The position numbers and the translations under genes were made by a program. Positions 7,141 through 30,816 of a DNA stretch of 33,483 bases are shown here, one piece after another. Numbering within the stretch: position 1 is the stretch's first letter; every line of letters starts with the position of its first letter. The stretch lies in the IMG/VR virus record IMGVR_UViG_3300031623_000025, positions 1 through 33,483 of that record; one strand, given 5' to 3'. The notes beneath the pieces were generated by a model, which did not search any database, was not told the origin of the DNA, and worked only from the letters and a program-made list of their open reading frames with translations. This DNA is from a virus.

Positions 7141-10100
7141 ATGGACACATTCCAAAAAGCATTGCACGAACAAAACATCACCTCAGCAGATGGCAATGCC
7201 GCAATTGGCTTAATTAGAAAAACAGCTGATGCTGAGGGTGTGGCCAGCCGTGATGTGGATGAAAGACTAGGTATCCAGCCGTTTGATACTTCCCCTATAC
7301 AAGAATTTTTGGTTAATAAAGCTAAAGAAACGTTCGGGGACAGCGGAGAGAAATTCACCCGTGAATTGTTTACCTTAGATGACTTTGCTAGTGCCGGTTT
7401 TGATCGCAGTGTGCTTGGTTTGGCTATCGAACCAATGGATAAATCTTCCAAAGAAACAATGGCTATGCCCGATCAGTCTAATATACAACATGCTGCTGCT
7501 GCCACAGGTCAAATTTTTGGGGACCTACCGGTGATAGTCCCCGCTATGGCTGCTGCTTTGGTGCTTACCAAAAAACCCCGCCACGTATATGGAGCTGGTT
7601 TTGCTGCCCCAGAGGTAATTAGGCATTTTTTATTAGACGCATACGAAAATGGGAGTATAGACAGTTTTTCCAAATTTTGGGACGTGTTTACAGGTGCAGC
7701 AAGGGCTGGGATGGAAGGGTATATTACGGGGTATTCTGCCGGTCTTACAAAAGAAATAGTTGCTGGGCCACTTAAGAAAGCTCTGCCGGGGGCGTTTTTG
7801 CCAAATGTTGCTACTACAGCAGCAGAAATAACCGCATTTACTACTACTGGGGCAGCACTACAGGGTAGATTGCCTACTAAGGATGAGTTTATAGTTGGTG
7901 CTCTAGCTATTGGGGGACTTAAAGCTGCTGGTAAAATTGTACAGGTAGGTGTCCAGTCCGTCCAGTCCGTCCGTGGTAAATTTGAAAAAGTGTATGCCGA
8001 AAATAATATTCGCCCTTCGGACGTGTTAGAAGATACCAAAACTGATTTTACTATTAGAGAAGACTTAAATTCTGTTAATATTGATATACCTAGGTCTTAT
8101 CAAACTGCAGAACAAGCTGCAAGGGCTGCAGAAACTAGGGCAGACCCCTTTGCTGGAGAAACTATTGAGTTTCAAAAGCAAAACGAAGTATGGTCTATGC
8201 AAGAGCCAGTGGAAGCTTTTGGTGAGTTAAATATGGAAAATATGATGTCTGGAGCAAAAGATGTTAATTTCCTAAGAGACACGTACAACAGACTATTAAA
8301 AGAACATGGGTTAGATGTTTTACATACTTCAGAAAGGTCTGCATTAAAGGCTTGGGTAGACCATTCTAAAGGCAATATTACTCGTATGGATGATCTATTT
8401 ATACCATTAAATGAGCCACTAGTAATATACCATGGGTCGTCTACTAAAGGACCTAATAAAAATATATCGGGTAGCTTGTCTCCAGACGTTGCTTTTGCAC
8501 GTGCTGATAAAAATTTTGGTGAAATACATAGAATAGTTCTACCAGCTAATACTAGAGTAGCCCTACCATCAAAATCTACTAATCTTGAGACTTTACAAAA
8601 CGAGTTAGAAGTAGTTGTACATCCAGAAAATAAAATAGAAGTAATTAGAGAATTAGATGTTACTACACCCACACCAGCCGCATTCCAGGAAGTAGTGGGT
8701 GATCCAGGAAGAAGAACATTTTTAAAACAAGCCGCTGGAACTGCAGCCGCCGTAGTCGCTGCGCCATTAATGCCTTTGTCTAAAATTGCTCCAGTAGCTA
8801 AAAAAGTGGTCGACAGTAGTAAATCTATATCTGTTATTGCAGGGTCTTTAGGCGAAAGTGGTGCAGTGATTTTACCACGTGATGCAATTATGAATGAATT
8901 AAGTGCGCTAGGTATGAAAGAAGCTGATCTCACTACTTATACATTTCATCCACAAAGTGCTGTTAAAACATTTGCAAAATTTGAAAAGGCATTAGAAGAA
9001 GGGGCTAACCCTAGATCTTTCCCAGATGCAGACTTAATTATGTTTAAAGGTGATCAAATATTAGTAGATAGAATTAAAAACAATCAACAAGCTTTAGATG
9101 CGCTAGAAGATGGAACATTATTTGAAAGTTATTATCAACCTAAATGGGAAAGCAAAGGCTGGGAACTAATTGATAATTTTGAAACTTTCTCTTCCCGTAG
9201 TATACAAGAAGTTATTGAAAGAGGTGTTGGGGATTTACCAGTAAGCAAAGGTAGTCCTTTTAACAAACAAAAAGCTTTAGAGTATTTTGAAGATTCGGGA
9301 TTTGATGTTAATCTTGCATCTAAAATGGCTGATCAAGCAGAATTATTATTTCAGCCTAAAACTATTGAAGCTAAGCCTAAAGATGCTCCACAAATTGAAG
9401 CTAAGCCTAAAGATGCTCCTCCGCAATTAAATGTCCAAAAAATTGCAGATTCTAGAGTAATACGTCGAGACGAAAGCACAGAGGTTAGTAGCCGCATATC
9501 TATTGGTGAGCCGTCTAACGTAAAACGTCCTTATGGTTTTAACGAAATATATCGAGATATATTTGATGATTTACATCCATTAAATCAAGTGGTAAAAGCA
9601 ATTAAAGACGGCAAAAAACTACCTGCCTATCAAGACCCTTACATATTAGCTAGAAATTTAAAAGGTGTGTCTGGTGTAGGTGATACGTTTTTAGAATTTG
9701 GCACAATGGACTATGCTTCTAAATTGCAAATAGGTGAGTCATTTAGAAGCATAGTTCGACCTATAGACCAAGCTGGTTTTTTAGATGCGTTTAGAGAATA
9801 TGCTGTTGCTAGAAGAACTTTAGAGTTGGTTGAAAGAGGTGTTGTAACTGGTATTGACCCAGTGATGGCAAAAAATGTAGTTAAAAAACACGGTAATAAA
9901 CCTAATTTTGAAAAAGATTTCCAAAGATTACGTAAATATCAAGAGGATGTACTAGCGTATGTACGAGACTCAGGCTTAATTAGTAAAGAACAATTTAAAG
10001 CTATTCAAGAAGCTAACAAAGATTACGTGCCATTTCATAGAGTAATGGCCCCTGGAAAATCCACAGGATCAGGCCTGCGGGGCGGCAAATCTGGAAGTTT

Positions 10101-12081
10101 AAAGAAGATTAGAGGGTCTGAAAGACCAATTATTGATCCGATTGAATCTATTATTAGAAATACTTATATATTAACTACCCTAGCTGAGAGAAACAGGGTG
10201 ATGAACGCTCTTGTAGATCTAGCTGAAACAGCCCCTGAATTAGGATTTATAGCTAAGAAAAAAGCAGCGACTATTGTCACTAATGTGACTAATAAAGAAC
10301 TAAAAAAATTGATGGAGCCATATCTTAAAGATGAGTCTATTAAATTTGGCGAAGAAGACCTAACAATATTTCGCAAAAAAGTATTTATTAATGAAAATAA
10401 TGTAGTTAGATACAAAGACGGTAAACCAGAAGTGTATGAAGCAGACCCTTTAATTATTGAAGCTTTGAGTGCTATGGACCGTGCAGCTTTAGATATGACT
10501 GTAAAGATTCTAGCATTACCGGCTACCATGTTACGCACGGGTGCTGTCTTGTCCCCAGATTTTATGTCACGTAATGCTACTAGAGACACAGTATCAGCAT
10601 TTATGTTTTCTAAAGATGGTTTTATACCCGTAATAGACACGTTTAGGGGGATGGGCCATGTTTTAGGTAAATCAAAAGCTTATCAAGAATGGGTGGCTAA
10701 TGGTGGGCAATTTTCACATCTACAATCTATTGATAGAAGTTACTATCAAAAAGGCGTAAAAGAAATATTACAAAGTATACCCGTTAGAAATGTGCTAAGA
10801 AATCCTATGGAGCAACTACGTGCATTGTCTAGCTTAATAGAACAATCAACACGTGTACAAGTATTTGCGAAAAGCGCCAAAAAAGCTCGTAAAAGAGGCG
10901 AACTGGATATAGAGGCTACAACACGTGCAGCGTTTGAAGCTAGAGACGTTACTTTAGACTTTCAAAGAATGGGGGCTAAAACCAAATCGTTAAATGCTAT
11001 GTCAGCGTTTTTTAATGCTTTTGTACAAGGCCCCGATAAAATGATTAGGTATATGAAAGAACACCCTAAAGCTTTTGCTATGAAGGCTTTTGCAGGATTA
11101 GTGTTACCTTCGGCTACTTTATATCTGATTAACAAAGATGAAGAATGGTATAAAGACTTACAACAATGGGAAAAAGACATATACTGGCATATCGAAATTG
11201 ACGAGGTAAGATGGCGTATACCTAAGCCATTTGGGGTGGGGTTAATATTTGGCACAGGCACTGAAAAATTTATGGAGTACATGATTTCTAAAGACCCTAA
11301 CGGGGGTAAGAAGTTTTTAAAGGCTGTGGGTGGTGAGTTTGTTCCTAATATGATGCCACAAGCTTTGGCTGTACCAGTTGAAGTGTGGGCAAACAAATCG
11401 TTCTTTTTAAATAGACCTATTATACCCAGAGATAGAGAAGGCGTACTACCCCACCTTCAATATGGTACATATACTTCGGAGACTGCTAAAGTAATAGCAG
11501 CATTGATAGGTACACTACCTGCAGTAGGAGACTCACTATTAGCATCGCCTGCTGTAGTAGAACACATAATTAAAGGATGGACAGGTGGATTAGGAAAATA
11601 CGTATTAGATGCCACGGATAAAGTATTGTCTATAGCAGGTCTTTCCCCAGATACCAACGAACCAACACCACAATACTTAACAAACATCCCTATAGTAAAA
11701 GCGTTTGTAGTAAGATACCCTTCTATGAATACTATCCCAATTGAAAAATTTTATAAAGAGTATGCTGATAGAGAAAGGTATATTAAATCATTTCGTGCAT
11801 TAATAACTGAGGGTAGGTATCTAGAAGGGGCAGATTTTTTACAAGCGTCTTTAGAATCAGGCAAATTAATAAGACTAACTGGAATTAAAAAGGGAATGTC
11901 TAATATGAGCAAAGCTATTCGGAGTATACACCGAATACCTGAAATGGAAGGTATGACGGACAAAGAGCTGTCCAATTGGAAGCGGGAACAAATCGACGGG
12001 TTATACTTAAAAATAAACCAATTAGCAAAACGGGGACTAGAAGTAGTAAAAACATTAGATACACTAGACACAAAAAATTGA
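7141..12081 (+). CDS. Giant ejection protein with putative ADP-ribosyltransferase and LPD38-like regions
   Basis: This 1646-residue protein occupies the place of T7 gp16. Residues 427-505 look like an ADP-ribosyltransferase: V-I-Y-H-G-S-S (H431), S-L-S-P-D-V-A-F-A, a P-A-N-T-R-V strand, then E488-L-E490 followed by V-V-V-H-P. At 524-529 is R-R-T-F-L-K followed by an Ala/Val run, which looks like a twin-arginine signal but is internal. A duplicated block (I-E-A-K-P-K-D-A-P) lies near 742-760. From about 800 to 1050 the pattern (H-P-L, D-P-Y-I-L-A-R, N-K-D-Y-V-P-F-H-R-V, I-D-P-I-E-S-I-I-R-N-T-Y) is that of large polyvalent ejection proteins (LPD38 type, from memory). The C-terminus has hydrophobic helices. 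It is probably packaged and injected with the DNA. I see no lysozyme motif. Confidence 0.78.
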   Translation: MDTFQKALHEQNITSADGNAAIGLIRKTADAEGVASRDVDERLGIQPFDTSPIQEFLVNKAKETFGDSGEKFTRELFTLDDFASAGFDRSVLGLAIEPMDKSSKETMAMPDQSNIQHAAAATGQIFGDLPVIVPAMAAALVLTKKPRHVYGAGFAAPEVIRHFLLDAYENGSIDSFSKFWDVFTGAARAGMEGYITGYSAGLTKEIVAGPLKKALPGAFLPNVATTAAEITAFTTTGAALQGRLPTKDEFIVGALAIGGLKAAGKIVQVGVQSVQSVRGKFEKVYAENNIRPSDVLEDTKTDFTIREDLNSVNIDIPRSYQTAEQAARAAETRADPFAGETIEFQKQNEVWSMQEPVEAFGELNMENMMSGAKDVNFLRDTYNRLLKEHGLDVLHTSERSALKAWVDHSKGNITRMDDLFIPLNEPLVIYHGSSTKGPNKNISGSLSPDVAFARADKNFGEIHRIVLPANTRVALPSKSTNLETLQNELEVVVHPENKIEVIRELDVTTPTPAAFQEVVGDPGRRTFLKQAAGTAAAVVAAPLMPLSKIAPVAKKVVDSSKSISVIAGSLGESGAVILPRDAIMNELSALGMKEADLTTYTFHPQSAVKTFAKFEKALEEGANPRSFPDADLIMFKGDQILVDRIKNNQQALDALEDGTLFESYYQPKWESKGWELIDNFETFSSRSIQEVIERGVGDLPVSKGSPFNKQKALEYFEDSGFDVNLASKMADQAELLFQPKTIEAKPKDAPQIEAKPKDAPPQLNVQKIADSRVIRRDESTEVSSRISIGEPSNVKRPYGFNEIYRDIFDDLHPLNQVVKAIKDGKKLPAYQDPYILARNLKGVSGVGDTFLEFGTMDYASKLQIGESFRSIVRPIDQAGFLDAFREYAVARRTLELVERGVVTGIDPVMAKNVVKKHGNKPNFEKDFQRLRKYQEDVLAYVRDSGLISKEQFKAIQEANKDYVPFHRVMAPGKSTGSGLRGGKSGSLKKIRGSERPIIDPIESIIRNTYILTTLAERNRVMNALVDLAETAPELGFIAKKKAATIVTNVTNKELKKLMEPYLKDESIKFGEEDLTIFRKKVFINENNVVRYKDGKPEVYEADPLIIEALSAMDRAALDMTVKILALPATMLRTGAVLSPDFMSRNATRDTVSAFMFSKDGFIPVIDTFRGMGHVLGKSKAYQEWVANGGQFSHLQSIDRSYYQKGVKEILQSIPVRNVLRNPMEQLRALSSLIEQSTRVQVFAKSAKKARKRGELDIEATTRAAFEARDVTLDFQRMGAKTKSLNAMSAFFNAFVQGPDKMIRYMKEHPKAFAMKAFAGLVLPSATLYLINKDEEWYKDLQQWEKDIYWHIEIDEVRWRIPKPFGVGLIFGTGTEKFMEYMISKDPNGGKKFLKAVGGEFVPNMMPQALAVPVEVWANKSFFLNRPIIPRDREGVLPHLQYGTYTSETAKVIAALIGTLPAVGDSLLASPAVVEHIIKGWTGGLGKYVLDATDKVLSIAGLSPDTNEPTPQYLTNIPIVKAFVVRYPSMNTIPIEKFYKEYADRERYIKSFRALITEGRYLEGADFLQASLESGKLIRLTGIKKGMSNMSKAIRSIHRIPEMEGMTDKELSNWKREQIDGLYLKINQLAKRGLEVVKTLDTLDTKN

Positions 12082-19492: not shown

Positions 19493-20851
19493 TCACGATC
19501 TAATAGAATCTATAATAGCCTCAGCCATAGACAACTTTTTTTGTAAAGCCACTATGATTTTTTCATCCAGCTTAGTACCAACTATATCTACATAAGTAAC
19601 TGGGTAATTTTGCCCATGTCTATGATTTCTAGCTTCAGCTTGAACACGTGCATCTAAATCGTAGTTATTTTCATAAAATATAGTAGTGTGACAAGGTACT
19701 GACCCCGACCCTAATAAAGTGTGACCGTATTTGCCAGCTGTCAACTGTGCGATCATGACCGTAGTATCACCTTTATTAAACAAAATTTTGTTGTCTACTT
19801 GGTCTTCTTCAGACTGGTTGCCTGTTAAAACAGCACATTTAATCCCAATCTTGTGCATCAGACGTATAAGATCTTTAATTGATTGTTTATAAAAGGCGAA
19901 CACAATTACTTTAGTATTAATTTCTTCTAATATTTCTTTTATTAGAGCTAATTTAGGGTTTTTATCTAGATGAACTAACTCATTAGTCTCACCCTGTTCG
20001 TCTATTATAAATCCAGACGATATCTGTTGTAGTTTCATCATTTGTGTTATAACCATTGGGGCAGTGATAGTTTCTTCTTTAATGTGAAGTACCAATTCTT
20101 TGCGCATTGTTTCATATTGATCGTATTGTTCACCAGACAATTCGTATCTTCTGGTAGTACACAGCGTGTCCGGCAGGTCCGTCCATTCGCTTTTTTTAGC
20201 TCTAAATGATGATTGGTCAATGATTGATGTAAGCTCGTCTTGATTTCTAACTCCAATAATTTGTTTACCTAAATATCCCCCCATTTTACAAAAACGATTT
20301 CTAAAGGCATATTGGTTTTTACCTTTTAGTTCTCCAATGCACCTAAATTGACCCCATATATCTAACGGTGATTTTACTATTGGTGCTCCTGATAGTATTC
20401 TAACGTAAGACGCAAAACTAGCTAAACCAATGATTCTTTTGGTTCTTTTAGCTTGTGGGTTTTTTACATGGATAGATTCGTCTAATACCAAATAAGTGTT
20501 GTTTGTTTGTAATTGGTCTTCAATGTATTGGCCACCCTTACCTATCATTGCTTCGTAATTAATAGCTAATATATCCCAATCGTCCGTTATTTTAGGCCAT
20601 GTACTAATATTCAATTTTACGTCCCACTCTTTCGCCTCAGCCACCCACACTTGTTTTAAAGACTGTGGGCAAATTATAATCATTTTACTCACTAAACCCA
20701 TAGTATATAAATTAATAAACTCGTTATAGGCAGTAGCCGTCTTTCCTAGCCCCATTTCCATAAAAAACCCAAATCCTCTTAAACCTTCTGCTTTTTCTAA
20801 AGCTTTAGTCTGGACAGCATACGGAGAACCTTTTAAGTGCCAAGGATACAC
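19493..20851 (-). CDS. SNF2-type superfamily 2 helicase
   Basis: With GTG 20851 as start the protein has 452 residues. It shows M-E-M-G-L-G-K-T (Walker A, 31-38), L-D-E-S-I-H (motif II, D124-E125), L-S-G-A-P-I (motif III), and Q-A-E-A-R-N-H-R-H-G-Q (motif VI). The last is close to the SNF2 hallmark. It should be a DNA-translocating ATPase in replication or recombination. I prefer GTG 20851 because AAGGAG lies seven bases upstream and it begins one base after the datZ-like stop. ATG 20896 and an earlier ATG at 20929 are in frame but overlap that gene. It is the last enzyme gene of the Z-nucleotide run. Confidence 0.88.
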   Translation of the reverse strand: MYPWHLKGSPYAVQTKALEKAEGLRGFGFFMEMGLGKTATAYNEFINLYTMGLVSKMIIICPQSLKQVWVAEAKEWDVKLNISTWPKITDDWDILAINYEAMIGKGGQYIEDQLQTNNTYLVLDESIHVKNPQAKRTKRIIGLASFASYVRILSGAPIVKSPLDIWGQFRCIGELKGKNQYAFRNRFCKMGGYLGKQIIGVRNQDELTSIIDQSSFRAKKSEWTDLPDTLCTTRRYELSGEQYDQYETMRKELVLHIKEETITAPMVITQMMKLQQISSGFIIDEQGETNELVHLDKNPKLALIKEILEEINTKVIVFAFYKQSIKDLIRLMHKIGIKCAVLTGNQSEEDQVDNKILFNKGDTTVMIAQLTAGKYGHTLLGSGSVPCHTTIFYENNYDLDARVQAEARNHRHGQNYPVTYVDIVGTKLDEKIIVALQKKLSMAEAIIDSIRS

Positions 20852-20852
20852 A

Positions 20853-21395
20853 CTAAAACTCCTTACTACTATATAGGTAGGTACGAGGCGTTTCATATAC
20901 TTTTTCTGCCAACGTTTTGGGTAAACCACCGTCTAAATCTTTTGCCATAGTACTCAAATGCCAATGCATGTCTTGTAATAGGGGGGCGACTGTTCTATTT
21001 CCCATGCCTAATTCATCACTTAGGTACATACAGGCTTCAAATATATCCGCTACTTTAACTACGTCTTTGCAGTATTTTATATCAGTAGAAGAATTAACCT
21101 GTATTTCTTCCGCCATTGTACTCAGGTGCTGTAATATTGGTGCGTCTTTCACTGTGTACTTTTTATAGGGTGTTGGTATATCGCCACTGACCATTTCATC
21201 AAAATCGTGTGTTAAGGAATATTGTGTTATCCAATTTATATCCTGCGTTCTCATACTCAATAATTTGGCAATTGCCGTCGCATAAATTGCCACATAATAT
21301 GAATGTTCGGCCACTGACTGTTGTCTAAGTGTTCTTATAATCGCCCACCTTGGAACGTGTTGTAATACTCTGTTGGTTGAGTCTAGTATGGACAT
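20853..21395 (-). CDS. datZ: HD-domain dNTP phosphohydrolase, DatZ-like dATPase
   Basis: This 180-residue HD-domain enzyme resembles YfbR nucleotidases and phage DatZ. The metal ligands are H31 (in V-A-E-H-S), H63-D64 (T-H-D-F-D-E) and D117 (V-A-D-I-F-E-A). R16-W17-x-I19 and T-P76 match the positions that I recall as lining the base pocket in YfbR/DatZ. DatZ strips the triphosphate from dATP, so A cannot be incorporated instead of Z. The DatZ call rests on neighbours (purZ, a PolA-type polymerase and a MazG-fold enzyme in one operon); on sequence alone a general 5'-nucleotidase is possible. ATG 21395 follows AGAGGA. Confidence 0.8.
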   Translation of the reverse strand: MSILDSTNRVLQHVPRWAIIRTLRQQSVAEHSYYVAIYATAIAKLLSMRTQDINWITQYSLTHDFDEMVSGDIPTPYKKYTVKDAPILQHLSTMAEEIQVNSSTDIKYCKDVVKVADIFEACMYLSDELGMGNRTVAPLLQDMHWHLSTMAKDLDGGLPKTLAEKVYETPRTYLYSSKEF

Positions 21396-21397
21396 AA

Positions 21398-21604
21398 TTA
21401 TTCCTCTTTAAAAGGGTATATGTGTAATTTTCTTTCTATAGCCTCTTTACACTCCGCATAAAAAATTGTACCAGTTGGTATATGAGTATACATAGTAGCA
21501 ATGTGACGATTCATCTCTCCCCACTGCCCATGTATCTTAAAATCTTCTTTTTTTAATAATAATTTTTCTTCAGTTATTGTTTTAATAGTAACATACTTAG
21601 TCAT
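21398..21604 (-). CDS. Unknown 68-residue protein inside the Z-nucleotide operon
   Basis: This small protein sits between purZ and the datZ-like gene, joined to purZ by an ATGA overlap and ending two bases before the datZ ATG. It begins M-T-K-Y-V-T-I-K and contains W-G-E-M-N-R-H-I-A-T-M-Y and F-Y-A-E-C-K. The mix of beta and charged residues suggests a compact fold. I recognise no family and see no catalytic motif. Its conserved operon place makes a cofactor or regulator of the Z pathway possible, but that is inference only. Confidence 0.7.
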   Translation of the reverse strand: MTKYVTIKTITEEKLLLKKEDFKIHGQWGEMNRHIATMYTHIPTGTIFYAECKEAIERKLHIYPFKEE

Positions 21605-22689
21605 TTTGTGGCCCCCTCATACATGCCGGTTATTCCAGGCCTAACTTTTTCTATTTCAGAACCCCAGCCCATTAACAACTCAGGATAGTATGATAATTTT
21701 TCTAAACAGGATTTTCCTATTTGTTCGCAAATGTCTTGTAGTAGCTCGTCACTAGCATAATTACAAAAATTTAAAAATATTAAAGTGGGTCTGTTTATGG
21801 AGACTGCCTCATCGAATTGCTGTTGACTCCATGTGAAAATTCGTCTAACTCGTTTTGTTACAGTAGTATATTCGTTTTCTACTTGTAATTCTTCAAATGA
21901 CACTTCGTTTTGATCGGGATAAAAGTCTCCACTATACCCTAATTCTGGTATAGAGCCTACTCTAATTGGGTAAGTTCTTAATGACATGGCAACGTTTTCT
22001 ACAAAAATAGGGTGTATCTCCGCATCAGCAATACCCTGTCCTACATTACAATTTCTAGAAGTACAATAAGGATAAAATCTGCCGTTAACTGATAAACTAT
22101 GACCCTGAGGTACTTCTACAGACACCCTAGCCCCATGACTAAGTTTATCATTTAAATCAATCCTCTTGATTCTAAATCTCGATTTTAATACATTGCTATT
22201 TTTGGCTAAACTACCAGTTCTTTGAGTTTTTCTAGCTAAAGCGTTTCCCACCCCCTTTCTAGTCGAAGATATTTTAGTAGCCATAGACGTTTTTATGTTT
22301 TCGTCATCTATGTCCTGCTGTGTGATAATAGTCGCATTAGGGTGGATAACTACATTTTTACTATTAATACCTATTTCGTCCGCCTCTTTCATTAATAAAT
22401 TAACATTAATGATGGCCCCTGCATTAACATATATAGTCGTGTCCTGCTGAATAACCCCAAAAGTTGGTAAGTGAAAACAACAAAAATTACGCTCTGGTGT
22501 TGATTGAAATTTAGTCCAGTGTCCTGCATTAGCACTTGCATTAGTGGTAGCAATATCCACTTCGTTTTGGGGTTGAAGAGCCAAATACGCAGCAAGCAAA
22601 CCTTTACCAGTGGAGCCAAATTGCCCATCCACTAAAACTGACGCTTTGCCATTTTTAATATATTCGAAGTTGTGTCTATCTACAGTCAT
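21601..22689 (-). CDS. purZ: PurZ: aminoadenylosuccinate synthetase for 2-aminoadenine DNA
   Basis: This 362-residue protein is a phage homologue of PurA that should join aspartate to dGMP, giving the precursor of dZMP. The P-loop reads G-Q-F-G-S-T-G-K-G (22-30); the catalytic Asp of PurA (in G-D-E-G-K-G) is S26, the change that marks PurZ. N-A-G-H (54-57), S-T-R-K-G-V-G (142-148), T-S-R-N (210-213) and T-T-V-T-K-R-V-R-R (275-283) match substrate and Asp-binding loops. The TKxD guanine-recognition motif is replaced by L-N-F-C-N near 306-310, so GTP may not be the phosphate donor. It is shorter than PurA (about 430). Both neighbours overlap by ATGA. Confidence 0.92.
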   Translation of the reverse strand: MTVDRHNFEYIKNGKASVLVDGQFGSTGKGLLAAYLALQPQNEVDIATTNASANAGHWTKFQSTPERNFCCFHLPTFGVIQQDTTIYVNAGAIINVNLLMKEADEIGINSKNVVIHPNATIITQQDIDDENIKTSMATKISSTRKGVGNALARKTQRTGSLAKNSNVLKSRFRIKRIDLNDKLSHGARVSVEVPQGHSLSVNGRFYPYCTSRNCNVGQGIADAEIHPIFVENVAMSLRTYPIRVGSIPELGYSGDFYPDQNEVSFEELQVENEYTTVTKRVRRIFTWSQQQFDEAVSINRPTLIFLNFCNYASDELLQDICEQIGKSCLEKLSYYPELLMGWGSEIEKVRPGITGMYEGATK

Positions 22690-22979
22690 TTTTTGCCCCC
22701 ATTATTACAGTCAGCCCAAATCAAAAACCATGCGTTGCAAATTGCGTGGGCCAAGTGGTGCTTGCCACTTTCTTTATCGTTAATTTCGCCAAGTCTCCAA
22801 GCCATAATATGTCTCATCATCGCATCAAAATAACGATCCCAGTCATCGCATTTTTTCCAATTATTAATACCATATTTTTCCGCACCAAAATCAAAAATGT
22901 CCACTACCTGTTGCAAAACTTCATATGGCAGCAATCTCCATCTCCTTTTCTTAGCGTCGTGTTTTTTGTAGTTCGTCAC
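22686..22979 (-). CDS. dATP/dGTP diphosphohydrolase N-domain-like (MazG-fold), candidate MazZ
   Basis: This 97-residue protein has K-H-D-x-x-K-R-R-W-R-L-L-P, F-G-A-E-K-Y-G-I-N-N-W, M-R-H-I-M-A-W-R-L-G-E-I-N-D and H-H-L-A-H-A-I-C-N-A-W-F-L. This pattern belongs to the phage family annotated as the N-terminal domain of dATP/dGTP diphosphohydrolases. Such all-alpha enzymes release pyrophosphate. Here the useful product would be dGMP, the substrate of PurZ. It is coupled by ATGA overlaps to the nuclease upstream and purZ downstream. Whether it or the MazG-like protein at 27152 is the MazZ equivalent cannot be decided by reading. Confidence 0.75.
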   Translation of the reverse strand: MTNYKKHDAKKRRWRLLPYEVLQQVVDIFDFGAEKYGINNWKKCDDWDRYFDAMMRHIMAWRLGEINDKESGKHHLAHAICNAWFLIWADCNNGGKK

Positions 22980-23380
22980 CCTAATTTGTCCATTTCAACA
23001 GTAGACCAAATATTAATACTAGATACTATTTGGCCCACGTCCCATTCATTTCCACTATAAGTTATACAGTGGGAATCCTTTGTGTAGTCTTCTGCATTAG
23101 GGTCAGCGCCTACATACATCACATGAAATTTGCCCTCTGGCTTATATAACAACCAACCAGAGGGCATATTGGCTATGTGTAGTCTTTTTAGTGTTTCTAT
23201 CTGCAACTTTGTTAGAGCCAACTTGTCTTTTTTACACTCAATAAACACAGCAGGAAGAGCATGCATTTTTATAAACAAATCCGGCAGACCACCTTGGTGT
23301 CTGTTGGCTACTTTGAAGGCCCATCCTTTTTTTCTATTTACTTCTTTTACTATACGAGATTGTAAAGTTAACTCATCCAT
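22976..23380 (-). CDS. VRR-NUC family nuclease
   Basis: This 134-residue protein shows the PD-(D/E)xK pattern of VRR-NUC enzymes: G-G-L-P-D34-L-F, F-I-E48-C-K50-K, and L-T-K-L-Q-I-E-T-L near 55. These are structure-selective nucleases acting on Holliday junctions or flaps, so it would process replication intermediates. It starts inside the polymerase gene (overlap of eight bases) and its stop overlaps the next ATG. The C-terminal third (after residue 90) is not recognised. Its length is normal for phage stand-alone VRR-NUC. Confidence 0.85.
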   Translation of the reverse strand: MDELTLQSRIVKEVNRKKGWAFKVANRHQGGLPDLFIKMHALPAVFIECKKDKLALTKLQIETLKRLHIANMPSGWLLYKPEGKFHVMYVGADPNAEDYTKDSHCITYSGNEWDVGQIVSSINIWSTVEMDKLG

Positions 23381-25178
23381 AGCTAGCCTCCGACCAATTT
23401 TTGCCTTCCCCTACATCCACCACCATAGGTACTTGCAATTCTATGGACTTTTTCGGGCCAAAGTCTTGCATTATTTCTATCGCAGTATTAAAGTCTTGTC
23501 TGTCATCCTCATAAAATTGGAAATCAATCGAATCGTGTATGCTTAATAACATGTGAACTTTATCCCCGTTTGCTTCTAAGTAATTATCAATATTAACCAT
23601 TGCCTCTTTTATAATGTCCGCATTACCACACTGTAATAGTCTATTAATGGCTTTATAACTCATGTCATAATTAGATCGTTTATCTAAACGTGCTCTTCTA
23701 CCCATAATACTTTTTACGAATCCAACAGACTTCATTTTATTGGCGGCAGTTTTTTGTAGTACTTTAATTTCTGGCATGTTTGTAAAATAGTCATTCCAAA
23801 TCTTTTCCCCTTGAGCCTCAGACACGCCCAATTCAACAATTAATTTAGCCTTTCCCATACCAGTTAGTAGCCCTTGATTGAGCCTTTTGCCTGAGTCCCT
23901 GTCTATCCCGGCAGCGTTTGCAACGGCCGTGTGCGCATCTATTGGTGGATCGGACAAATAACCCGATAGTAACACTTTACACTTTGAATAGTGGGCCAAC
24001 AGCCGTGGTTCACACTGGCTATAATCCACACTGCCCCACACCATGCCTTCATCTGGTACAAACACCGACCTAAACAATTGCCCCAATTCCTTATTTCTTT
24101 TGGGTACTTGCTGCATATTTGGCCTAGATGAACTAAGTCTACCAGTGATTGTACCAAAGTGATCAGACCTTGATTGGTTAAATTCCGTATGGATTCTACC
24201 ATTAAAAATGTGTGTGTTCATGGGTGATATAAAGGAATTGAGCAGGTTGCCATACTTTCTTGCTGCGACTATTTTCTTCCCTATTTCGTTAGTTAACAAG
24301 TAGTTCTCTGTAAAAGAAGGGTTTCCTTTCTCTGTAATAGGGTAGTCAGTAATGTTAGCTTTGTCAAATAACGCTTTCATCTGAGCACCAGACCGTATGT
24401 TTAAGTCCTTTGGAAGTGATTCATTAGCCTCTATTAAACGTTGCTCAACTAATTTAGAAACGTCAACCAAACGCTGCTCGTCTATGTTTACTCCTCTAAC
24501 TACCATCCTATGTAGAACTCTAATTACTTTGTTTTCTAAAGACCACACCCGCCTAAGGTCTTGGTCGTCCAAATCTTTCTGCTGCTGCTCCCATAACTGA
24601 TATGTTGATGTGCCATCACCTTTAGCATATTCCGTACCCATGTCGTCCTGACCATCTAATCTCCAGTAATTAGCCATTTGCTTACTACCGTCATTACCAC
24701 CAAATTGACTTTTTAAATACTGATATAACTCGCCGCCTCTTTTAGGCTGAACACCCGCATCTATACAACAGTTCTCAAGTGAGTAGGATGACCTATGCTC
24801 GTTAATTAACCCCGCATTTACCATCGTGTCCTCAAAAGTGCATTTGGATAGGTCGATGTTGTGCCTATGTAAGAATTTTAAATCAAATGCAAGATTATGC
24901 CCAATTATATGAATCGGTTTAGATTTGAATATTGAATTAATGTCCATTTCAAATGGATGGGGCTTAGGGCTTACACACTTCTCTTCTTCTGGCGGAATAA
25001 AATTATCAACATTATTAGACCTATGGCGGACAGGTATATAAAAGCTATCACTAGGATTGGAAGAAAAAGTAAACACATACCCAACAGCATAGTTACTTTT
25101 CCAATCAAGCCCACTAGTCTCAACATCTAACACTACCTTTTCAGCAGTCGATAATCTACGTAATAATTGGTCTGTCAT
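23373..25178 (-). CDS. dpoZ: Family A DNA polymerase with proofreading, DpoZ-like
   Basis: This 601-residue polymerase has a 3'-5' exonuclease domain (D18-V-E20; H-N-L-A-F-D99; Y184-x-x-x-D188) and a PolA polymerase domain, with no 5' nuclease. Motif A is D385-Y-S-Q-C-E-P. Motif B keeps R427 and K431 but reads N434-Q-G-L-L-T-G, where the Phe/Tyr of the O-helix is Gln and the second aromatic is Thr. Motif C is H548-D549-S550 rather than H-D-E. These departures and its operon with purZ and datZ suggest the DpoZ type, which prefers Z over A; I could not compare it directly. Upstream is a terminator. The start has only a weak AGG site. Confidence 0.87.
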   Translation of the reverse strand: MTDQLLRRLSTAEKVVLDVETSGLDWKSNYAVGYVFTFSSNPSDSFYIPVRHRSNNVDNFIPPEEEKCVSPKPHPFEMDINSIFKSKPIHIIGHNLAFDLKFLHRHNIDLSKCTFEDTMVNAGLINEHRSSYSLENCCIDAGVQPKRGGELYQYLKSQFGGNDGSKQMANYWRLDGQDDMGTEYAKGDGTSTYQLWEQQQKDLDDQDLRRVWSLENKVIRVLHRMVVRGVNIDEQRLVDVSKLVEQRLIEANESLPKDLNIRSGAQMKALFDKANITDYPITEKGNPSFTENYLLTNEIGKKIVAARKYGNLLNSFISPMNTHIFNGRIHTEFNQSRSDHFGTITGRLSSSRPNMQQVPKRNKELGQLFRSVFVPDEGMVWGSVDYSQCEPRLLAHYSKCKVLLSGYLSDPPIDAHTAVANAAGIDRDSGKRLNQGLLTGMGKAKLIVELGVSEAQGEKIWNDYFTNMPEIKVLQKTAANKMKSVGFVKSIMGRRARLDKRSNYDMSYKAINRLLQCGNADIIKEAMVNIDNYLEANGDKVHMLLSIHDSIDFQFYEDDRQDFNTAIEIMQDFGPKKSIELQVPMVVDVGEGKNWSEASYG

Positions 25179-25229: not shown

Positions 25230-26063
25230 TCAGTAATTGTCGTCACTTTTTGTAACAACTTCTTCGGACTCTTCTTCACCCGACATACCAAAACCCTTTT
25301 GGGAAAAGTGCTCATACATTCCTCTGTATGTACCAACGTCTTGCTTTTCTATAATCCTTGCTTTAGGAGCAGGGCCACTTGTGTCACTAGAAGCTTGGAA
25401 GTGCCAATTAAAATAACTGTCGTTATCTGAATTACGGTCTTTACGGCTAGTAAGATCGAATATCCTGGACCAACTAGGTAACTTGCTGATCGCTAGCTTA
25501 GATACAAATTGCTGTCCTACCTTGAAAGACGATCTTTGTAAAGATATTGCCGCAGGGCTTAGATCGATGTGCTCTGGAAACATTGCTATTACATTAATCA
25601 TTCTAGTAGCCGCAGGATAAGAATTCTTATCATCGGGGTTCATAGTACCAAAATTAGTTAATCCACCTTGTTGCACTGTAGTCCCAGTGCGCCAAGTTAC
25701 TTTTTGGCCTGTGTCTAGCTTTACCTCAAAATCTTGATCTGGTCGATCCCAATGGATGCCATCATCAGCACGTGCTAAAATCCCACCACCGTCTTTGCGT
25801 GGTCGCCATAAAATTACGCTTTGTGACACAAACACAGGTACTATCTGTAGTGCACTACCCATGGATGTTTCAGCTACGGTGTGGTAAAAATCGCCAGCCT
25901 TTTTATCATCGTCTATCACCTCAGGGCTAAGCCCCTGTAATAGCTTGATACGGGGTACAATTGTTAGATCAGAAACGTTTTCTGTGCCTTCTCCTGAGTA
26001 CTGTGCTAAGTAATCAGGTATACTTACTTCACTAGTCTCTTTTTTTGCTACTGATTTAGCCAT
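25230..26063 (-). CDS. Putative single-stranded DNA-binding protein
   Basis: This 277-residue protein has L-K-L-like beta segments: V-P-R-I-K-L-L-Q-G-L-S-P-E-V, A-G-D-F-Y-H-T-V and A-L-Q-I-V-P-V-F-V. It ends with an acidic tail (E-E-E-S-E-E-V-V ... D-D-N-Y) of the kind that replication SSBs use to contact partners. I recall similar proteins next to phage polymerases, usually hypothetical. The start has TAGGAGA plus the shared box. Its place before the polymerase and after other replication genes supports DNA binding. The function is inferred from the tail and context. Confidence 0.45.
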   Translation of the reverse strand: MAKSVAKKETSEVSIPDYLAQYSGEGTENVSDLTIVPRIKLLQGLSPEVIDDDKKAGDFYHTVAETSMGSALQIVPVFVSQSVILWRPRKDGGGILARADDGIHWDRPDQDFEVKLDTGQKVTWRTGTTVQQGGLTNFGTMNPDDKNSYPAATRMINVIAMFPEHIDLSPAAISLQRSSFKVGQQFVSKLAISKLPSWSRIFDLTSRKDRNSDNDSYFNWHFQASSDTSGPAPKARIIEKQDVGTYRGMYEHFSQKGFGMSGEEESEEVVTKSDDNY

Positions 26064-26913: not shown

Positions 26914-27155
26914 GCCTTCCTAGCAGATGCCTTAATTAAGATTGCTGGACCCACGATCACGTCATCAGACAAGACGCTATACAACTTGGTTGCTTTCAAA
27001 TTGGGGGCCAGCCCAGTTAGTTTACCCTCTTCGTTAACTAGCATATAGTCACCATTAGGAAAATTAATCCCTTCAACATAGCCACCAACAAACTTCTGCG
27101 CTTCTCTTAGGCTTGGTTCGTCTTGGCCGTTTTGTATAATTTTATAAGCGGTCAT
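26907..27155 (-). CDS. DUF3846-like protein
   Basis: This 82-residue protein has F-V-G-G-Y-V-E-G-I, N-G-D-Y-M-L-V-N-E-E-G-K-L-T-G-L, P-N-L-K-A-T, and D-D-V-I-V-G-P-A-I-L-I. This order (V-G-G-x-x-E, N-E-x-G, G-x-P-x-N, I-V-G) is that of the DUF3846 family found in phages and plasmids. The role of the family is unknown. ATGA overlaps with the upstream MazG-like gene, so they are co-translated. Confidence 0.7.
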   Translation of the reverse strand: MTAYKIIQNGQDEPSLREAQKFVGGYVEGINFPNGDYMLVNEEGKLTGLAPNLKATKLYSVLSDDVIVGPAILIKASARKAW

Positions 27156-27481
27156 TTGCTTATACGATTAAATAAATCTGGTTGGCTTCGTCCAAGATAA
27201 CCATCGCCCCTTCTGTCTAATACTGATGCAATTATTAAAGCGAAATTGGCCACGTCAGCAGCTTCAAGCTTTACAGAGTCACCGTCTTCTTCTTTAATAG
27301 CTGCCCTTAATTCTTCTACCTCATCAATTAAAAGGTCAAAAGCCTGTGTTACGTCTACGTTATCCCAATGGCCTTTGTGGATGTTCCTATTAAGCTTATC
27401 TAGCATTAATACTACAAATCGCCATATGTCACTTTCATATGCTTCACAACCATCAGGAATGGGAATCGACAGCGTTCTCAT
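27152..27481 (-). CDS. MazG-like nucleotide pyrophosphohydrolase
   Basis: This 109-residue protein has the MazG metal site: E54-V-E-E57-L and E73-A-A-D76, an exact ExxE...ExxD motif, followed by V-A-N-F-A-L-I-I. Such enzymes hydrolyse (d)NTPs to (d)NMPs and pyrophosphate. With purZ nearby it may be the (d)GTP-specific MazZ activity that feeds PurZ with dGMP; a (p)ppGpp- or dUTP-directed role is also possible. It is the second MazG-fold enzyme in the window. Both ends overlap neighbours by ATGA. Confidence 0.72.
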   Translation of the reverse strand: MRTLSIPIPDGCEAYESDIWRFVVLMLDKLNRNIHKGHWDNVDVTQAFDLLIDEVEELRAAIKEEDGDSVKLEAADVANFALIIASVLDRRGDGYLGRSQPDLFNRISK

Positions 27482-28503: not shown

Positions 28504-30816
28504 TTAATAGTCTATGTTTCTTTGATCAAAGACAGGGGGGGGTTCATAGGACAGAGACATATCTGATTCCCCTGCTGAAAGCCACGTCTTCGCATTTCTA
28601 ACTGCCCACATTTTAACCTTTTTGTTATTAATTCTTTTTGCACCTAAATTCGTAAAACCTAACCTTTTTAATGTCTGGGTCAAAGCTATGGGATTTATGC
28701 CACGGAATCCTGGAGCTGTATTAATTGCAGCAGCCAAGTCAGTAGCGTTTACAATATCGCAAGTCATTGGCCACTCGTCATTTTCTGCACACTCTTTTAT
28801 ATAAGCATCAACTGGTCTAGTAGTCTCGTCTACCATATCTCTAAAGTGTTTAGTCTTTGGAGGTGGAGCTTCTGGGTCAAAATTAGTTAAATTAAAGTCT
28901 AAAGCCCACCTATATATAGGAGCAAAATTGTCTTTAGTCCACCCAAACAACTTTTTATAATAAGACGGGGGGTGTGGGTCAGACTCAGACATCCACACCC
29001 AAAATCTCCGACTGTCCTTATCTAGGATAATGGCGTTTGTATGGTTAGTCGTACAGAAGAAAGACGCTGGGTTGTTCGACACGTAGCTGTCTGTCCTCAT
29101 TTTTCGAATTGTAACATTATCTTCAGACAACATAGGCTTCATTCTATTTGCAATTTCTAGTCTGCCACCAGCCATTAACTCTTCAATAAACACCACTTCT
29201 GAATTAGCAAGCCAGTCATTATATTGTTCTCTCAATTGGTCTGTGCCTACTTCCATTACGTGATCGTTGCCTATAATTCCTCTAAATACTTGCTTTAAGT
29301 AACTTTTGCCAGTACCCTCTTTATGTGACCCAATTACCACTGCGTGGCGCAATCGTCTTCCTGGGTTCGCCAACACGTGAGCTATACAAGAACCAAGATG
29401 TTGGAATCCCTCTTCGTCATAGTCAGTCAAATACTTCAAATGGTCAGTAAAAATGGAAACGTCAGCACCTTCGTCACTTGGTATTATCTTTCGTGGTTGC
29501 CAAGTGTTGAAAATCCTGCGGCCTTTATGCATCGACATAGACTGGTCAACTCCTGGAACAAATTCACAAGTATCAACCATCTTTAAATCTACTGATTCCA
29601 ACATTAACTTGGCTATGTTTTTGCTTGGGGCTAATGATGCATGAGCACGTTGCACTGCTGAAGGAGTAAAAGTCAAATCCTTTACAGGGTGATAGAACGA
29701 CTCTTCAAAGGCCACATATACATATGACTTAAGCAACTCTGATATGTCAATTTTTGCCCTTGTACCTCTAGCAAATCCTTTATTAATTGCCCCATCAATT
29801 AAACCATCTAAAAAATGGTCCGATTTATACCTGTCTACTTCTGAATTGCCTCTGTCCGGTGCTATATGAGCATCATCAACATAACTACGAACTAATCTCT
29901 TAATTTCTATTCTCGCAGAACTTTCTGGCTCTCCATGGAAATTAATCCAACTTGCGATACCCTGCATGATAGGGTGGTGGAATCCGTCTTTGTCGTCACC
30001 AATCGAATTCAAAAACCTCATATACTTGCGATCTTCTGGCTCGTCTTCTGAAGTATAAATCCATTCTCTAGATAGGGGTACTGCGTCATTAGCCCCTTTA
30101 ATTATACCACTCCGCTGGACCATCGGGTCTTCAATTTCTTCGATTATTGGTCGTGCAGTATAATGTGGTTGAATTGGATTGAGTAAGGCAGGATCAATTA
30201 GTCTTCGGCCATACACACCCATAAACGACTCATTAAAAGTCTGGAAGTAGCGTTTAAGATCATCATCACTAATAGGAACATCCAAGACAAAAGAAAGGTG
30301 GCAGCTGACCGTAGACCCCTTAAACCCTGCACTTGCTGAATAGCGCCAATGGCAGGATGCATCATGAAATGCAGCTGGTAGTAAGTCTATAACGTCCCTA
30401 ATCGTAGTTTCTGGGTCTTTTGGGTTAAATTCGTGACTAAGTATCTTTCTTGATGCGTCTGCTGGTAGTCCATCAATGTCAAGGGTTACCCATCTTCTGG
30501 GTGTTGATATTATTGTTCCTTCTCCTGTAGTGCGAACTATACGCCTCACATCACAAGACAAGTCAGTATTCTTTGTGGGGTGGCCTCTTACTATAAACGA
30601 ATATGGGACCTCTTGTAACTTCTCCAACTGCTCAAAAAATTCGTCTGATGTGTTAAATTGTCTAACTCTAAACTGGAAATTCTTAGCCACACGATGAGAA
30701 ACCGTCTTGCCTTTTTTAATGATTTTGGTGCAAATAGCTTTAGGAACTGGGGTTAGTACCAAAAACTCATGGGGTACTGGGTCTGAAAGTATCTCAGCTT
30801 CAATTGTTCGTGTCAT
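28504..30816 (-). CDS. Primase-polymerase fused to SF3 helicase
   Basis: This 770-residue protein combines an archaeo-eukaryotic-type primase with a superfamily 3 helicase. Primase motifs are D113-I-D115 (V-T-L-D-I-D-G), S171-C-H173 and L-I-D208-P, followed by Q-P-H-Y-T-A-R-P. The helicase Walker A is G-S-H-K-E-G-T-G-K504-S, with V-V-F-I-E-E near 540 as Walker B and C-T-T-N-H-T-N as sensor region. It would prime and unwind at the phage origin. A primase-polymerase of this type is known in the Z-DNA cyanophage S-2L. AAGGTAA precedes ATG 30816. A promoter lies about 30 bases upstream. Confidence 0.9.
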   Translation of the reverse strand: MTRTIEAEILSDPVPHEFLVLTPVPKAICTKIIKKGKTVSHRVAKNFQFRVRQFNTSDEFFEQLEKLQEVPYSFIVRGHPTKNTDLSCDVRRIVRTTGEGTIISTPRRWVTLDIDGLPADASRKILSHEFNPKDPETTIRDVIDLLPAAFHDASCHWRYSASAGFKGSTVSCHLSFVLDVPISDDDLKRYFQTFNESFMGVYGRRLIDPALLNPIQPHYTARPIIEEIEDPMVQRSGIIKGANDAVPLSREWIYTSEDEPEDRKYMRFLNSIGDDKDGFHHPIMQGIASWINFHGEPESSARIEIKRLVRSYVDDAHIAPDRGNSEVDRYKSDHFLDGLIDGAINKGFARGTRAKIDISELLKSYVYVAFEESFYHPVKDLTFTPSAVQRAHASLAPSKNIAKLMLESVDLKMVDTCEFVPGVDQSMSMHKGRRIFNTWQPRKIIPSDEGADVSIFTDHLKYLTDYDEEGFQHLGSCIAHVLANPGRRLRHAVVIGSHKEGTGKSYLKQVFRGIIGNDHVMEVGTDQLREQYNDWLANSEVVFIEELMAGGRLEIANRMKPMLSEDNVTIRKMRTDSYVSNNPASFFCTTNHTNAIILDKDSRRFWVWMSESDPHPPSYYKKLFGWTKDNFAPIYRWALDFNLTNFDPEAPPPKTKHFRDMVDETTRPVDAYIKECAENDEWPMTCDIVNATDLAAAINTAPGFRGINPIALTQTLKRLGFTNLGAKRINNKKVKMWAVRNAKTWLSAGESDMSLSYEPPPVFDQRNIDY

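Follow-up and report, generated by a model that had tools for sequence, protein, structure and literature searches.

The stretch of DNA analysed here (the window) corresponds to one IMG/VR virus record, IMGVR_UViG_3300031623_000025, 33,483 bases long, and is a fragment. It opens with the major head protein, and the region between about 30.8 and 19.5 kb is a minus-strand block of replication and nucleotide genes, in which we examined a predicted pathway for replacing adenine by 2-aminoadenine (Z) in DNA, together with the DNA polymerase encoded beside it. The first-pass annotation had described seven genes on one strand, from a PolA polymerase to an SNF2-type helicase, as a complete Z-DNA pathway in one operon of a podovirus at 19493-25178. 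All seven genes were found at these positions and all on the minus strand. The genes of the block were as follows.

23373..25178, minus strand: family A DNA polymerase with 3'-5' exonuclease, 601 amino acids; Pfam DNA_pol_A 1.3e-64 and an exonuclease domain
21601..22689, minus strand: purZ, predicted succino-2-aminodeoxyadenylate synthase, 362 amino acids; GQFGSTGKG, with Ser for the catalytic Asp
20853..21395, minus strand: datZ, predicted HD dATP triphosphohydrolase, 180 amino acids; phrog_7076 1.5e-23
27152..27481, minus strand: mazZ-2 orthologue, predicted MazG-type (d)GTP diphosphohydrolase, 109 amino acids; outside 19493-25178
22686..22979, minus strand: DUF5664 protein (dATP/dGTP diphosphohydrolase N-terminal family), 97 amino acids, between the nuclease and purZ; PF18909 7e-32
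22976..23380, minus strand: VRR-NUC-like nuclease, 134 amino acids; relatives match PF08774, up to 3.5e-8
21398..21604, minus strand: protein of unknown function, 68 amino acids, which the window's subclade keeps between purZ and datZ
19493..20851, minus strand: SNF2-type helicase; SNF2-rel_dom 9.5e-16, phrog_62 1.8e-99; start corrected to GTG 20851
25230..26063, minus strand: Pam3 gp34-like protein, upstream of the polymerase; PF23977 6e-35
28504..30816, minus strand: P4/VapE-type primase, counterpart of the primase-polymerase of phage OH

The genes were closely packed, with 4-base overlaps at the nuclease/DUF5664, DUF5664/purZ and purZ/small gene junctions and 2 bases between the small gene and datZ, and a Shine-Dalgarno-like stretch preceded most starts in the block. 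The gene order was kept in about 70 loci (54 non-identical polymerases), a recurrence that is more than chance, and the operon in the window is real. The usual order in relatives, seen in dozens of contigs, was Pol-(nuclease)-PurZ-MazZ2-DatZ-SNF2. Members of the window's subclade had mazZ-2 shifted upstream of the polymerase, the DUF5664 gene inserted before purZ and the 68-amino-acid gene between purZ and datZ. The operon claimed earlier therefore stood, but its description as complete was inexact, because mazZ-2 is found outside these coordinates, 2 kb upstream of the polymerase gene. The assignment to a podovirus agreed with the tail tubular proteins, with the podoviral relative phage OH and with the fact that no tape measure gene was seen in the window; tail fibres were also present. 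A DNA-level search of the phage collection with the window gave no match.

The PurA homologue carried GQFGSTGKG in place of GDEGKGK, with Ser at the Asp13 position of PurA, as the first-pass annotation had read it. Its best NCBIfam model was NF038379 PurZ (2.4e-69) and its best solved-structure matches were phiVC8 6FM1 and S-2L 7ODX, and its identity as PurZ is secure at the level of sequence. The HD phosphohydrolase proved to be DatZ, an identity that its sequence makes equally secure. Its top PDB match was the S-2L DatZ 6zpa, and it matched 13/13 of the residues that make the metal, phosphate, base and sugar contacts in the S-2L structure paper (R19, W20, I22, Q29, A32, H34, H66, D67, G74, P79, K81, K116 and D119; PMC8065100). 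DatZ was not detectable in about eight related operons with PurZ and MazZ-2 (e.g. L049, L051, L178, L184, L186 and L188), where another dATP-removing enzyme may stand in. The PurZ of five loci (L048, L049, L051, L069 and L101) read GQ[WYF]GSEGKG, with Ser at the key site followed by Glu rather than Thr, as in PurA.

The MazG-fold hydrolase that had been placed within the cluster was a DUF5664 protein, and the mazZ-2 orthologue was found at 27152-27481 instead. This open reading frame showed 46% identity to the MazZ-2 of phage OH (2e-17), matched Pfam MazG (2.1e-4) and retained the E-rich motif EVEEL...EAADVANF; besides OH, it had only two weak phage matches in the whole collection. The gene at 22686-22979 was ruled out as MazZ, as it matched DUF5664/dGTP_diPhyd_N only and failed the MazG/MazZ family test, and BLAST found no similarity between the two genes. 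The gene at 22686-22979 did match the MazZ fusion protein of SH-Ab 15497, in the DUF5664 half at its N terminus. Its closest relatives came from phages of Marinomonas, Erwinia, Pseudoalteromonas and Edwardsiella, for which no Z pathway has been reported. In phage Wayne, a stand-alone DUF5664 protein converts dATP, dGTP and dUTP to monophosphates (PMC12884076), so by analogy the window protein may add dGMP and remove dATP.

Given that PurZ and DatZ are secure, a Z-DNA pathway, already known in itself, is the best reading of the gene set. Gene identity, catalytic residues, order and phylogeny come from the present analysis, while the catalytic activities and the presence of Z in virion DNA are carried over from published enzymes. 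By this analogy MazZ-2, perhaps helped by DUF5664, would convert dGTP to dGMP, and PurZ would combine dGMP with aspartate to give succino-2-aminodeoxyadenylate (dSMP). Host PurB and kinases would then convert dSMP to the Z deoxynucleoside monophosphate (dZMP) and triphosphate (dZTP), and DatZ would destroy dATP by converting it to dA. PolA, the primase or both would incorporate Z opposite T in place of A, and the Z-for-A DNA would be expected to resist many restriction enzymes.

The first-pass annotation had counted the polymerase as DpoZ in an established set with PurZ, DatZ and MazZ. PurZ, DatZ and, outside 19493-25178, MazZ-2 were present, but the polymerase failed the sequence tests for the phiVC8-type DpoZ (DpoZ-2). 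That type is marked by three insertions, by L455, F459 and G548, and by a mobile exonuclease element that is extended and carries R161 and M165, and F459 is the sole substitution common to both known DpoZ groups (PMC8599892). In the window polymerase insertion 2 in helix O was absent (3 residues from R754 to K758, against 10 in DpoZ-2), as was insertion 3 at the fingers tip (a region of 31 residues, against 45-55), and Q, T and N stood at the positions of L455, F459 and G548. In E. coli numbering it had T at Y766 and Q at F762, so that the Phe at the Tyr766 position common to both known DpoZ groups was replaced by Thr. A literature search on Tyr766 mutants found nothing that bears directly on this residue. 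Insertion 1 and Ser583 were found in the window polymerase and also in canonical polymerases, and the catalytic residues D355, E357, D424, D501, D705 and D882 were kept, as they are in all PolA, and are unspecific.

The exonuclease E1/E2 element of DpoZ-2 was present, with 84 residues from D424 to Y497, where DpoZ-2 has 81-94 and the nearest canonical group 75-78. An equivalent of M165 was found within S-K-Q-M, with no exact R161 there. The E2 Met position was M or I in 54/54 polymerases of the window clade and M, I or A in DpoZ-2, and none of the nearest canonical polymerases (0/7) had the E2 element.

A polymerase tree built with the motif-B columns removed placed the window, OH and L006 in one clade (support 100/100) and DpoZ-2 in another (100/99). 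The window group, DpoZ-2 and the canonical HTVC023P/PaMx11 group joined in a three-way fork without resolution, and the approximately unbiased (AU) test rejected neither alternative (p = 0.40 for the window group and DpoZ-2 together, and p = 0.22). An ordinary DpoZ-2 is ruled out by the sequence features and the separate clade, though the two may be sister groups. A divergent DpoZ-2 that has lost some insertions would explain the shared E2 element, the NCBIfam model DpoZ_1 as best match and the AU result for a common clade. However, we consider it unlikely, as the two clades were separate and fully supported with the fork to canonical phage PolA left open, five DpoZ-2 features were missing, and the 27-30% identity to the VP2 and SH-Ab polymerases was no higher than the 33% to canonical HTVC023P. 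Nor do we keep a claim that the window polymerase and DpoZ-2 were recruited independently, because of the same fork and the shared E2 element. Judged by its sequence, the window polymerase is Z-associated and lies outside the known DpoZ clades.

In the PurZ tree, 54 PurZ rows grouped together (95/79), apart from the single long-branched rows of E. coli PurA and of Preamble PurZ0. PurZ split into a phiVC8/SH-Ab/S-2L clade (98/97) and a sister window/OH clade (95/92, and 100/99 in a further tree), and these clades corresponded to the polymerase clades. Among the cultured phages of the collection, with part of the 201 PurZ-matching records placed in a tree, only OH surfaced in the window's clade, through its PurZ, polymerase and MazZ-2 matches. 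The window is thus placed by its sequence in a well-supported sister PurZ clade that is almost wholly uncultured. The first-pass annotation had named a grouping of PurZ and polymerase outside the Z-phage clades as a result that would speak against Z-DNA. PurZ fell inside the PurZ clade and the polymerase outside the DpoZ-2 clade, which counts in part against that prediction.

Loci were collected in two sets, by a polymerase-first scan and then by a PurZ scan that added many more; since the latter loci came from a PurZ scan, their PurZ linkage is by construction. The polymerase-first scan gave 21 loci with a window-type polymerase, and PurZ was in the same record in 20/21, L056 being the exception. 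A whole-record search of canonical relatives found PurZ in 0/6. Among 54 non-identical window-clade polymerases (near-identical ones were kept, and metagenome contigs may be duplicated) residue 766 was T in 45, S in 2, N in 1 and Y in 6, giving T or S in 47/54, and it was F in 18/18 DpoZ-2. In the 62 polymerases whose records or loci lacked PurZ, for many of which the PurZ search covered the polymerase flanks only, it was Y in 57, F in 5 and T or S in none. The association at 766 is a correlation inside one clade, and common descent may explain it.

We propose tentatively, at slightly short of an even chance, that the window and about fifty related contigs encode a third kind of Z-selecting polymerase. 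It would share the E2 element with DpoZ-2 but would obtain selectivity in the fingers through Tyr766 to Thr or Ser (with Gln, Met or Leu at 762) rather than through Tyr to Phe and an insertion, and would co-evolve with its own PurZ clade. The selectivity here is argued from published enzymes, and the association of residue 766 and E2 with PurZ from our own loci. Alternatively, Z may be made and A excluded solely at the level of the nucleotide pool by DatZ and the diphosphohydrolases, with a PolA that has no preference for Z and a Thr766 that is an unrelated lineage trait. This is possible, although we lean against it. S-2L works in this way with an unselective PrimPol (PMC8065100; PMC8342488), OH has a PrimPol-type gene and the window a primase, insertions 2 and 3 and L455, F459 and G548 of DpoZ-2 are missing, and Tyr766 is kept in basal members of the clade. 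On the other hand, the change at Y766 was tightly linked to PurZ and occurred in 0/62 of the polymerases from loci without PurZ, and the E2 exonuclease element was common to DpoZ-2 and absent in the nearest canonical group.

The phiVC8 study found that no single residue accounts for the choice of Z over A by DpoZ. A Z-associated polymerase group without the DpoZ-2 insertions, with another change at the helix-O Tyr and with E2, separates candidate features from bystanders, and the question of Z versus A selection becomes testable with few mutants. PurZ phages have been reported to carry DpoZ-2 (PMC12884076), and in the cited Z-phage texts we came across no description of a sister PurZ clade, of a polymerase with Thr/Ser766 or of an E2 element shared in this way. 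The polymerase and its clade are what is new here; PurZ phages are far more diverse than cultured collections suggest.

Overall it is very likely that the window carries the dZTP-making and replication operon of an OH-related podovirus, whose PolA, with the primase, builds Z-for-A DNA. The polymerase would be adapted to Z along its own line, with an E1/E2 element as in phiVC8-type DpoZ and with Thr766 instead of Phe plus an insertion. Several observations weigh against this. The window PurZ scored 233.8 bits against the NF038379 cut-off of 300, and the polymerase 336.5 bits against the cut-off of 500 for NCBIfam DpoZ (NF038380); automated annotation would miss this branch because of these scores, and NF038379 appears to have been trained on the other PurZ clade. 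The clade member L056 has the E2 element, but no PurZ was found in its 70-kb record and its polymerase kept Tyr766; it possibly represents an ancestor-like or reverted state. Six PurZ-linked members at the base of the clade kept Tyr766 (L141 and L148 are basal enzymes of this kind), and one had Asn, so the change at Y766 is not required for linkage to PurZ. The primase might do the bulk of synthesis, by analogy with S-2L. The window is only part of a genome, with no terminase or portal seen among its genes. Finally, the literature examined yielded no biochemical, virion-DNA or base-composition results for the window/OH clade, and the passages of the OH paper that were consulted give no base analysis.

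The lack of a reported base analysis also fits a cluster that makes no Z-DNA today and serves only nucleotide salvage, or one in which Z-for-A replacement is partial, and the OH authors took the genes for phosphate salvage. However, we regard this as very improbable. Dozens of diverged contigs kept Ser at the Asp13 position, the full DatZ site and MazZ-2, a pattern to be expected if the pathway is under selection.

Among known systems, Ochrobactrum phage OH (vB_OspP_OH, MT028492, Wolominvirus) shared the layout, being a podovirus with primase ... gp34-like, PolA, nuclease, PurZ, MazZ-2, small gene, DatZ and SNF2, and it had already been named a MazZ-2 Z-cluster phage (PMC8342488). Identity to the window was 44% for PurZ, 35% for the polymerase and 46% for MazZ-2. 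In OH, purZ and datZ flank MazZ-2, and a DUF5664 gene was not seen in the cluster. In the window DUF5664 precedes purZ, MazZ-2 is encoded upstream of the polymerase, and the small gene is a different one. The polymerase active site has M/S in OH and Q/T in the window.

phiVC8/VP2 and SH-Ab 15497 resemble the window in the Ser of their PurZ, in having DatZ and a (d)GTP diphosphohydrolase, and in the exonuclease E2 element of their PolA. The window differs from them in its sister PurZ clade, in Thr766 and in a polymerase without insertions 2 and 3, L455, F459 and G548, and their gene order also differs (Pol-primase-PurZ in VP2 and Pol-single-stranded DNA-binding protein-PurZ in SH-Ab). S-2L shares PurZ, MazZ and DatZ, and close to its replication gene it also encodes a VRR-NUC nuclease and an SF2 helicase, but it has PrimPol only, no PolA, and MazZ-1 rather than MazZ-2. 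Arthrobacter phages of the Wayne/Preamble type (PurZ0, DpoZ-1, DutZ, DmtZ, DUF5664-1) share with the window a DUF5664 domain and an enzyme of the PurZ family that has Ser; they have PurZ0 rather than PurZ, DutZ and DmtZ in place of DatZ and MazZ, and a polymerase of an unrelated clade.

The remaining genes of the block were characterized by family. The VRR-NUC assignment held for the nuclease through its relatives: PF08774 was matched by 6/14 aligned members (the nuclease family and the S-2L VRR-NUC), with D34, E48, K50 and Q60 invariant in the alignment, while the window copy searched alone gave no match to PF08774. The SNF2-type helicase was also correctly named, but its start was moved from the open reading frame start at 20929 to GTG 20851, which is most likely the true start judging from the sequence. 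This start agrees with the relative L003, has AAGGAG upstream and lies one base after the datZ stop, as it does in L003. The nuclease and the helicase may be replication or recombination partners, with no sign that they are specific to Z. The small gene of unknown function noted earlier between purZ and datZ was present, and its 68-amino-acid product (HGxW...TGxxFY...IYPF) recurs close to this position in other loci, as a C-terminal domain within longer proteins (L141:9662-9862 and L152:10110-10322). A PDB search with its structural model (predicted local distance difference test score 77) gave no match with E <= 0.001. A gp34-like homologue adjoined the polymerase in most related loci.

Further PurZ genes were found outside such operons. 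Six phage contigs of 67 to 287 kb (L005, L147, L160, L161, L166 and L173) carried a window-clade PurZ in a subclade of its own, and window-type DatZ, MazZ and polymerase were not found within 8 kb of it. Two apparently chromosomal PurZ-like genes with DGQFGSTGKG were seen, in the Proteobacteria metagenome-assembled genome (MAG) UBA6503 (L203:7980-9023, on the 994-kb contig DJLZ01000001.1) and in the Alphaproteobacteria MAG OFTM141 (L202:7989-9026). They were 63% identical to each other, nested among window-clade phage PurZ, and stood in the conserved neighbourhood glpD-glpK-cmk-purZ-HAM1-like-rpsA-sppA-ihf, the neighbours being named by eye from sequence. No other PurA-family gene was found in these genomes of 1.6-1.8 Mb, nor was a YfbR/DatZ-like gene, and the best purB-model matches there looked like fumarase. 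To our knowledge, a domesticated bacterial PurZ would be new. The scan of bacterial genomes also found a related operon on L208, a MAG contig labelled Gottesmanbacteria, from which we claim no host because the binning of phage contigs is unreliable. Elsewhere in the window, a 1,646-amino-acid open reading frame at 7141-12081 resembled phrogs of unknown function (phrog_9854, 4e-104) and is probably a virion protein.

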